Positions 46,325 to 56,737 of a stretch of DNA of 64,000 nucleotides are shown here, in pieces. The number at the start of each line of letters is the position of its first letter. The stretch's first letter is position 1. Origin of the DNA: Pseudomonas nunensis (lineage in GTDB: Bacteria > Pseudomonadota > Gammaproteobacteria > Pseudomonadales > Pseudomonadaceae); assembly GCF_024296925.1 (NCBI RefSeq), contig NZ_CP101125.1, positions 7,264,927-7,328,926 of the forward strand, written 5' to 3'. The notes under the pieces are model-generated. The model was not told the DNA's origin and searched no databases. It saw only the letters and a list, made by a program, of their open reading frames with translations. The translations under genes were made by a program, and so were the position numbers.

Positions 46325-46414
46325 ATGGCCGCCCGCCCATGGGGCGCGTGCGGTCTGCCGAGGATACTTGGCCTGTCCGCCGGATGCCCGGGAAACCGTT
46401 TAAGGAAGCTGTTT

Positions 46415-53542: not shown

Positions 53543-53631
53543 AGGCGATCCTTCAGAGTCGGAGAAAATTCAAGGTCGCCATTATGGCCGCAAGTCCGCC
53601 TGACGCAAACCTCGGCGGGCTCCTGTTGAGT

Positions 53632-55983
53632 ATGAATAAAGTGCGTATAATCCGCCGCCATGACTCGAACTCGATCCCCCCGCAGCAAAAAAAACCACCA
53701 TCCAAGGGCCTTAGCCCGTGGTTGAGCTGGGCCATTAAACTCAGCCTGGTCGGCCTCGTCGTGCTCGCCGGGTTCGCGGTTTACCTGGACGCCATCGTCC
53801 AGGAGAAATTCTCCGGCAAGCGCTGGACCATCCCGGCCAAGGTGTACGCGCGTCCGCTGGAGCTGTTTACCGGCCAGAAGCTGAGCAAGGAAGACTTCCT
53901 CACCGAGCTCGACGCCTTGGGCTACCGCCGCGAAGCTGTGAGCAACGGCCCCGGCGCTGCGGCGGTCAACGGCAATACCGTTGACCTGAATACCCGTGGC
54001 TTCCAGTTCTATGAAGGCCTGGAAAAAGCCCAGCCTGTGCGCGTGCGGTTCTCCGGCGACTATGTGGCCGAACTTTCGGCGACCAACGGTTCGAAGTTGT
54101 CCGTGGTGCGCCTGGAGCCGTTGATGATCGGCGGCATTTATCCGAAAAACCTTGAAGACCGGATCCTGATCAAAATCGATCAGGTCCCTCCGTATCTGCT
54201 GGAAACCCTGGTCGCCGTGGAAGACCGGGATTTCTATCACCACTGGGGCGTGTCGCCGAAGTCGATTGCCCGGGCCGTTTACGTCAACACCTCGGGCGGC
54301 AAGATGACCCAGGGTGGCAGTACGCTGACGCAACAATTGGTCAAGAACTTCTACCTGACCAGCGAACGCAGCCTGACCCGCAAACTCACCGAAGCCATGA
54401 TGGCGATGCTGCTTGAGCTGCATTACGACAAACGCGAGATTCTTGAGGCTTACCTCAATGAAGTGTTCGTCGGTCAGGACGGTCAGCGCGCGGTGCACGG
54501 TTTCGGCCTGGCCAGTCAGTTCTTCTTCGGCCAGCCGTTGTCCGAACTGAAACTGCATCAGGTCGCGTTGCTGGTGGGCATGGTCAAGGGCCCGTCCTAT
54601 TACAACCCGCGTCGCAACCCGGAGCGGGCGCTGGAGCGACGCAATCTGGTGCTCGACGTACTTGAGCAACAAGGCGTTGCCACAGCCGAACAGGTTGCGG
54701 CGGCCAAGGCCATGCCGCTGGGCGTGACCACGCGTGGCAAATTGGCCGACAGCTCGTTCCCGGGCTTTATCGACCTGGTCAAACGCCAACTGCGTGAAGA
54801 CTATCGCGACGAAGACTTGACCGAAGAAGGCCTGCGGATTTTCACCAGTTTCGATCCGATTCTGCAGATGAAAGCCGAAGCCTCGGTCAATGACACCTTT
54901 AAACGACTGGCCGGGCGCAAAGGTTCGGATGACGTTGAAGCGGCGATGGTCGTGACCAACCCGGAAACCGGTGAAGTCCAGGCCATGATCGGTAGTCGCC
55001 AGGCAAGCTTTGCCGGTTTCAACCGCGCGCTGGATGCGGTGCGACCAATCGGTTCGTTGATCAAGCCGGCGGTGTATCTGACTGCGCTTGAGAAACCCAG
55101 CCAGTACAGCTTGACCAGTTGGCTGTCCGACGATGCCTTCTCGGTGAAGGGCGCGGACGGTCAGGTCTGGAAACCACAGAACTACGATCGCCGCTCCCAC
55201 GGCACAGTGTTCCTGTATCAGGGGCTGGCGCATTCCTACAACCTGTCGACCGCGCGTCTCGGGCTGGAGCTGGGCGTGCCGAATGTCCTCAAGACTTTGG
55301 CACGACTGGGTGTGACTCGTGAATTCCCGGCGTTCCCATCGATGCTGTTGGGCGCAGGTGGCTTGACCCCGATGGAAGTCGCGACCATGTACCAGACCCT
55401 GGCCAACGGCGGTTTCAACACGCCGATGCGCGGGATCCGCAGCGTACTGACCGCCGAGGGCGAGCCGCTCAAGCGCTATCCGTTCCAGATCCAGCAGCGG
55501 TTTGATCCGGCGTCGATCTTCCTGATCCAGAGCGCCATGCAGCGGGTGATGCGTGAAGGCACCGGCAGTTCGGTTTATAACGTGCTGCCCAAGACCCTGA
55601 CGCTGGCGGGCAAGACCGGCACCAGTAACGATTCGCGGGACAGCTGGTTTGCCGGTTTCAGCCAGGATCTGCTGGCAGTGGTCTGGCTGGGGCGCGACGA
55701 TAACGGCAAGACGCCGTTCACCGGCGCCACCGGTGCGTTGCAGGTCTGGACCAGTTTCATGCGCAAGGCCGACCCGCTGCCGCTGGACATGCCGCAGCCG
55801 GACAACATCGTTCAGGCGTGGGTAGATTCGCGCACCGGGCAAGGCTCTGATGCCAACTGCCCAGGTGCGGTGCAGATGCCGTATATTCGCGGCAGCGAAC
55901 CGCCTCCCGGCGCCGCTTGTGGTGGGGAAACCCCTGCTTCCGGCGAAACGGTGATGGATTGGGTCAAGGGCTGGATGAATTAA
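53632..55983 (+). CDS. mrcB: Penicillin-binding protein 1B (mrcB), with a probable frameshift at the N-terminus
   Basis: This bifunctional peptidoglycan synthase has one transmembrane helix (LSLVGLVVLAGFAVYLDAIV) and a GT51 glycosyltransferase domain (AVEDRDFYHHWGV, GGSTLTQQLVKN). Its transpeptidase domain has SLIK (Ser nucleophile in RPIGSLIKPAVY), SYNLSTARL and KTGTSNDSRDSW. The frame given starts at ATG 53632 (783 residues). The usual family start (MTRTRSPRSKK) is at ATG 53660 in another frame and stops at 53725 because an A run (53687-53694) is one base short. One extra A would give 774 residues. See findings. Confidence 0.9.
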   Translation: MNKVRIIRRHDSNSIPPQQKKPPSKGLSPWLSWAIKLSLVGLVVLAGFAVYLDAIVQEKFSGKRWTIPAKVYARPLELFTGQKLSKEDFLTELDALGYRREAVSNGPGAAAVNGNTVDLNTRGFQFYEGLEKAQPVRVRFSGDYVAELSATNGSKLSVVRLEPLMIGGIYPKNLEDRILIKIDQVPPYLLETLVAVEDRDFYHHWGVSPKSIARAVYVNTSGGKMTQGGSTLTQQLVKNFYLTSERSLTRKLTEAMMAMLLELHYDKREILEAYLNEVFVGQDGQRAVHGFGLASQFFFGQPLSELKLHQVALLVGMVKGPSYYNPRRNPERALERRNLVLDVLEQQGVATAEQVAAAKAMPLGVTTRGKLADSSFPGFIDLVKRQLREDYRDEDLTEEGLRIFTSFDPILQMKAEASVNDTFKRLAGRKGSDDVEAAMVVTNPETGEVQAMIGSRQASFAGFNRALDAVRPIGSLIKPAVYLTALEKPSQYSLTSWLSDDAFSVKGADGQVWKPQNYDRRSHGTVFLYQGLAHSYNLSTARLGLELGVPNVLKTLARLGVTREFPAFPSMLLGAGGLTPMEVATMYQTLANGGFNTPMRGIRSVLTAEGEPLKRYPFQIQQRFDPASIFLIQSAMQRVMREGTGSSVYNVLPKTLTLAGKTGTSNDSRDSWFAGFSQDLLAVVWLGRDDNGKTPFTGATGALQVWTSFMRKADPLPLDMPQPDNIVQAWVDSRTGQGSDANCPGAVQMPYIRGSEPPPGAACGGETPASGETVMDWVKGWMN
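53646..53651 (+). promoter_or_regulatory. Candidate -10 element near mrcB start
   Basis: A perfect TATAAT lies between the two candidate starts. If it is used, transcription would begin near 53658 and only the ATG at 53660 would be on the mRNA. There is no good -35 at 16-18 nt. Confidence 0.35.
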
Positions 55984-55999: not shown

Positions 56000-56737
56000 G
56001 TGAACAAGTGGTTGATTCCAGCGGTTACCGCCGTGGCTTTGCTCAGCGGTTGCTCCAGCGTACAGCGCGGTTCGATCCCGGTTGTGGATTCCGGCAGCGC
56101 AGTGTCGAACAGTGAGCGGATTTCGGCGAATGGCGGTTTCCGTCAGACCACCGTGAAACGTCCTGCACAAGCCCAGACCCAGGCGATCCCGCAAGGCGAT
56201 ACCGGTGTGGTGGTGATGGTTCCAGGGGGTGGCGCGGTTTCCTCGGCACCGATCAGCACGTCGCCGATCACGCCGGGCCCGATTACCCCAGGTCCGATCG
56301 ATACGTCGCCGGTGCAGTCCGCGCCGGTCAATCAGGGCAGCTACAGCATGCCATCGACGCCGAGCGGGATTCCGTCGGCCAGTACCGGTGGCGGTTTGTC
56401 TGCCGATGAACAGCTCGATGGCCCAGTGTTGGCGCTGCTGACCACCGCTCAACAGCAACAGGCCACTGGCGACCTCAACGGCGCATCCTCCAGCCTGGAG
56501 CGCGCCCAGCGTGTGGCCCCGCGTGAGCCGCAAGTGCTTTATCGCCTGGCGCAAGTACGCATGGCCCAGGGCGATGCGCCGCAAGCCGAGCAGTTTGCTC
56601 GTCGTGGTCTGACATTTGCCAATGGCCGCCCGGATCTTCAAGCCAGCCTGTGGGAATTGATCGCTCAGGCGCGTGAGAAACAGGGCGATTCCGCGGGTGC
56701 TTCGCAGGCACGTCAGAAGGCCAAGGTTTCGCTGTGA
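56000..56737 (+). CDS. TPR-containing lipoprotein
   Basis: This 245-residue lipoprotein has lipobox LLSGC near residue 18. A low-complexity Pro/Ser/Gly linker (residues 60-130) follows, then a TPR-like helical domain (LTTAQQQQATGDLNGASSSLERAQRVAPREPQVLYRLAQV). It probably sits in the outer membrane facing the periplasm. It starts 16 nt after mrcB on the same strand and may help that synthase, as other TPR lipoproteins do for PBP1 enzymes; this is inference. Confidence 0.85.
   Translation: MNKWLIPAVTAVALLSGCSSVQRGSIPVVDSGSAVSNSERISANGGFRQTTVKRPAQAQTQAIPQGDTGVVVMVPGGGAVSSAPISTSPITPGPITPGPIDTSPVQSAPVNQGSYSMPSTPSGIPSASTGGGLSADEQLDGPVLALLTTAQQQQATGDLNGASSSLERAQRVAPREPQVLYRLAQVRMAQGDAPQAEQFARRGLTFANGRPDLQASLWELIAQAREKQGDSAGASQARQKAKVSL

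Follow-up and report, generated by a model that had tools for sequence, protein, structure and literature searches.

The window analysed here, a stretch of 64,000 nucleotides of the Pseudomonas nunensis genome, carries mrcB (ponB), the gene of penicillin-binding protein 1b (PBP1b). All features of the mrcB region given below lie on the plus strand, with coordinates of the window. The longest open reading frame (ORF), hereafter the main frame, runs from ATG 53584 to 55983, corresponds to 799 amino acids and includes another ATG at 53632-53634. Within it, the translation of 53695-55980 matches the NCBIfam family TIGR02071 (penicillin-binding protein 1B) with 1011.8 bits for a curated cut-off of 717.75, and the UB2H, transglycosylase (Transgly) and Transpeptidase domains were all found. 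The start codon of the family is not in this frame. It is ATG 53660-53662, which, as an earlier note on this DNA had proposed, opens the MTRTRSPRSKKNHH frame (MTRTR frame); the same ATG opens MTR(T/S)R... in 56 other Pseudomonas loci. Reading from ATG 53660 gives MTRTRSPRSKKNHHPRALARG, i.e. 21 sense codons (53660-53725 with the stop) ended by TGA 53723-53725, so that no uninterrupted frame leads from the family start codon into PBP1b.

The point where the frame is lost is a run of eight A's (A8, 53687-53694) followed by C. Sequence and translation agree with the earlier note on the position of this run, on the continuation of PBP1b in the -1 frame relative to MTRTR, and on the heptamer A_AAA_AAC (53689-53695), which stands in the register of the MTRTR frame. 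The 774-residue product predicted there has a counterpart in the nearest relative, whose intact gene is a 774-residue ORF. The status of the main frame upstream of the A run is due solely to the one-base difference. The gene thus resembles mrcB/ponB of TIGR02071 by its set of three domains and by an N-terminus found genus-wide, and differs from it by an A run which is one base short in the P. nunensis assembly. Just 3' of mrcB, the ORF list contains a lipoprotein-like ORF (56000-56737), at what we take to be the position of lpoP, the partner and activator of Pseudomonas PBP1b.

A -10-like element close to the mrcB start

The region upstream of the start was compared in 57 mrcB loci: P. nunensis, its 29 best other matches and 27 further loci, which together are not a random sample. 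A TATAAT, readable as a -10-like element from its spacing and conservation, is present at 53646-53651, 8 nt before ATG 53660. This arrangement, with a spacing of exactly 8 nt between TATAAT and the ATG, is found in 56 of the 57 loci; L050 alone differs and has TATACT. The sequence from GTGCGTATAAT through ATGAC hardly varies among the 57 loci, and bases further upstream vary more; the near-invariant TATAAT-ATG block corresponds to 53640-53664. At the scale of the genus, the combination of -10 element, spacing and start was matched in 298 of 398 Pseudomonas genomes, these matches not being each placed at mrcB. None of the 57 loci has AGGA, GGAG or GAGG at -20 to -3. A scan with the sigma-70 consensus gave no scored promoter, and a standard -35 hexamer was not found; the argument for a -10 element is therefore one of conservation and spacing.

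With a -10 element 8 nt before the ATG, the 5' UTR would be very short or missing altogether. Transcription begins 6 to 9 nt downstream of a -10 element, and with the 8-nt spacing the mRNA would start at the ATG or within 3 nt of it. Leaderless genes are characterized by a -10 element no more than about 10 nt from the start codon and by the absence of a Shine-Dalgarno (SD) motif, and the sequence suggests that the mrcB mRNA is probably leaderless in much of the genus. In Pseudomonas aeruginosa, RNA-seq identified 43 mRNAs with 5' UTRs shorter than 10 nt, an amount called low for that species (PMC3272035); PA4700, ponB and mrcB are absent from the main text of that article. A literature search, judged by titles and the first lines of abstracts, found no description of a leaderless mrcB. 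Since most of the Pseudomonas genomes scanned have this promoter spacing, leaderless initiation in the genus might be studied with mrcB as a candidate.

The A run and the reading frame in other Pseudomonas genomes

The nearest relatives found were G327 (94% identical) and G053 (93% identical). Both have nine A's (A9) at the site, in frame and with near-identical flanks, as have G215 and G219. A pattern scan specific to the CC context showed at least eight A's before CC at the mrcB site in 6 of 398 Pseudomonas genomes. They are distributed as follows: A9, in frame, in five genomes of one species each (the four above and G055), and A8 in P. nunensis only. Tract length is thus invariant among the five A9 species, and the P. 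nunensis genome departs from it by one base. Eight A's are also present in G292, but in another context and in frame. Shorter runs are the rule among mrcB loci: six A's in 31 of 56 and seven in 13 of 56. We also scanned a contig collection, from which P. nunensis or very near records are possibly absent, for the A8 context with an exact CGCAGC prefix; it gave 29 loci, none titled Pseudomonas. The mrcB region had no match in a plasmid collection.

The frame is kept with PBP1b in 54 of the 56 TATAAT-bearing loci, the exceptions being P. nunensis and G034. A wider pattern, with the start at one end and the conserved Trp region at the other, was matched in 287 of 398 Pseudomonas genomes. After removal by eye of one match unrelated to mrcB from the 150 matches listed, 149 genomes were left; 147 of these have in-frame spacing, with the same two exceptions. 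No frame break at the A-run site common to relatives was seen in the other genomes examined. The break of G034 (locus L038) occurs elsewhere in the N-terminal stretch, at a C run with one C fewer than in its relative G033, and this gap is the sole one across 3,593 aligned columns. G034 is a single-contig genome of 95% estimated completeness. Its break may be another assembly error, or one tolerated in a short cytoplasmic tail; it could also mean that the share of real N-terminal breaks is higher than assumed. In P. nunensis, the first 200 residues of PBP1b past the A run have 98.5% identity to G327 and 99% to G053, and this stretch is therefore without decay.

One-base breaks in the assembly and explanations of the mrcB break

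To look for other one-base breaks, 400 kb of P. nunensis, window included, were aligned to the G327 contig over about 314 kb and to G005 over about 304 kb. A strict rule retained ORFs whose match was split over two frames, each of the two pieces having at least 94% protein identity and the second at least 30 residues; ORF totals include antisense ORFs. With G327 ORFs searched in P. nunensis, 5 of 296 were retained. Two were set aside: a minus-strand ORF which extends across the mrcB start region, and a match at window position 46393, upstream of the likely start of its gene. The other three, named by profile search, are rodA, obgE and a dctA-type transporter, and the same three were recovered with G005 ORFs (3 of 195). 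Each has one base more than its counterparts in G327 and G005. The insertions, likely assembly errors, lie at about 7120942 (rodA), 7247053 (obgE) and 7223665 (dctA-type) of contig C1, all outside the window. No break by the strict rule was read in G327 or G005 with ORFs of P. nunensis or of the other reference (0/285, 0/192, 0/195 and 0/183). The N-terminal piece of mrcB is too short for the rule, which therefore misses the break of this gene. Looser filters gave 18 candidates for G327 ORFs in P. nunensis, 17 in the reverse direction, and 10, 11, 6 and 5 in four further comparisons; on visual inspection, most were judged to be antisense ORFs or to precede likely starts and were discarded. No break was seen when another 400-kb stretch of P. 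nunensis was compared with G005 (0 of 179 ORFs; 0 of 177 in reverse), and the assembly is therefore not uniformly poor; its breaks are few and perhaps local. As a side observation, the one-base difference from G327 at 46393 falls shortly 5' of where a gene probably starts; this gene, we presume, resembles a haem-type ABC binding protein, and the difference probably lies in a non-coding leader.

The break in rodA is in the middle of the protein, and cells normally need RodA to be rod-shaped and usually also to grow. Obg is normally essential, but the break in obgE falls at residue 348 of 407, behind the GTPase core, where it might be tolerated; this one is weaker evidence than that of rodA. One 400-kb stretch of P. 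nunensis thus has an excess of one-base breaks in conserved genes compared with the references (rodA, obgE and dctA, plus mrcB). Such breaks, scattered, in conserved genes and confined to one assembly, are similar to residual single-base indel errors of assemblies. Since no break was seen at the site in the other genomes and since rodA, obgE and dctA have one-base breaks as well, an ordinary mrcB gene, with one base of its A run missed in the assembly, is very probably what lies at the locus. Sequencing error was among the alternatives listed by the earlier note, and it is the one favoured by the A9 relatives and by the other breaks of the assembly. PBP1b would then be read in the living strain from the MTRTR start at 53660 without a break, and the product would have the usual length of the family, as in the nearest relative with its 774 residues. 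Several observations count against an assembly error. Runs of nine A's mutate in cells too, and the type of error differs, the breaks of rodA, obgE and dctA being insertions outside long runs whereas that of mrcB is a loss in a long run; the clean second stretch, the position of the obgE break, the break of G034 and a loss of PBP1b that could be survivable point the same way. We infer that the DNA of the cell has no such break. Most likely the frame break at the A run is not a real feature, and only the unusual closeness of the promoter to the start codon then sets this mrcB apart. As an assembly error, it would affect annotation: PBP1b predicted from the longest ORF would begin wrongly at ATG 53584, and rodA, obgE and dctA of this assembly would also need checking. 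The authors of GeneTack expected BLASTp-validated frame-shifted singletons to be sequencing errors and not genuine indels (PMC3711429).

Assembly error ranks first among the explanations, real mutation of the strain second and transcriptional slippage third. The least probable of all is a programmed -1 ribosomal frameshift at A_AAA_AAC. This heptamer is in the zero-frame register and belongs to the consensus heptamers found in clusters of frame-shifted genes (PMC3711429), but the break is not common to relatives, G034 breaking at a C run instead, and no SD-like motif was found between the ATG and the heptamer. The next 90 nt have no special structure either: their fold has a z-score of -0.17, and 86 of 200 shuffled sequences fold at least equally well. 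The slippery heptamer which the earlier note had put forward is thus unlikely to be at work. Translation in the main frame from ATG 53632, another of its alternatives, or from ATG 53584, under an upstream promoter, has only a very slight probability. The frame is open from 53584, but the TATAAT of 53646-53651 is downstream of both ATGs. In particular, ATG 53632 begins 14 nt before this conserved element, is absent in L023, L024 and L032, and is out of frame in the A9 relatives, so that its use as a start is unlikely.

If A8 is real, RNA polymerase could slip on it and add an A to some mRNAs, from which full-length PBP1b would be made from the family start; we consider this highly unlikely. A runs longer than seven are listed among slippage sites (PMC3711429), and an A8 run in human apoB yields about a tenth of full-length product (PMC1088944). 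The run is also of the kind present in the transcriptional slippage genes dnaX of Thermus and mxiE of Shigella, with at least eight A's or T's (PMC1088944). Unlike for these two genes, however, the relatives of P. nunensis have no shared use of a shifted frame: a shifted-frame extension common to several homologues at the same run, expected of a slippage gene, was not found among them, and the other genomes examined do not depend on such slippage. Just as improbable is a broader scheme, also requiring a real A8, in which mrcB would be leaderless with its slippery tract 27 nt from the 5' end, RNA polymerase slippage setting the level of PBP1b and replication slippage switching the tract between A8 and A9. 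A real A8 would make mrcB a natural case of a cell-wall enzyme under tract-length control.

A real one-base deletion in the A tract of the strain is unlikely too, less so than the preceding readings. PBP1b would then be lost, reduced, or, if translation restarts at TTG 53722, made without its short cytoplasmic tail. Replication slippage likely makes long runs of A or T hypermutable (PMC1088944), and G034 has an N-terminal break as well. Against a real deletion, the breaks of rodA, obgE and dctA would need a separate explanation, and the stretch of PBP1b compared with relatives is without decay. Cells that have PBP1a can usually do without PBP1b, and the P. nunensis genome contains a second class A PBP candidate, an open frame of 848 codons; a real loss could therefore be survivable. 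The sequence also contains a TTGA overlap (53722-53725), in which a TTG of the main frame overlaps the TGA of the short frame and which would be a possible restart site if A8 is real.
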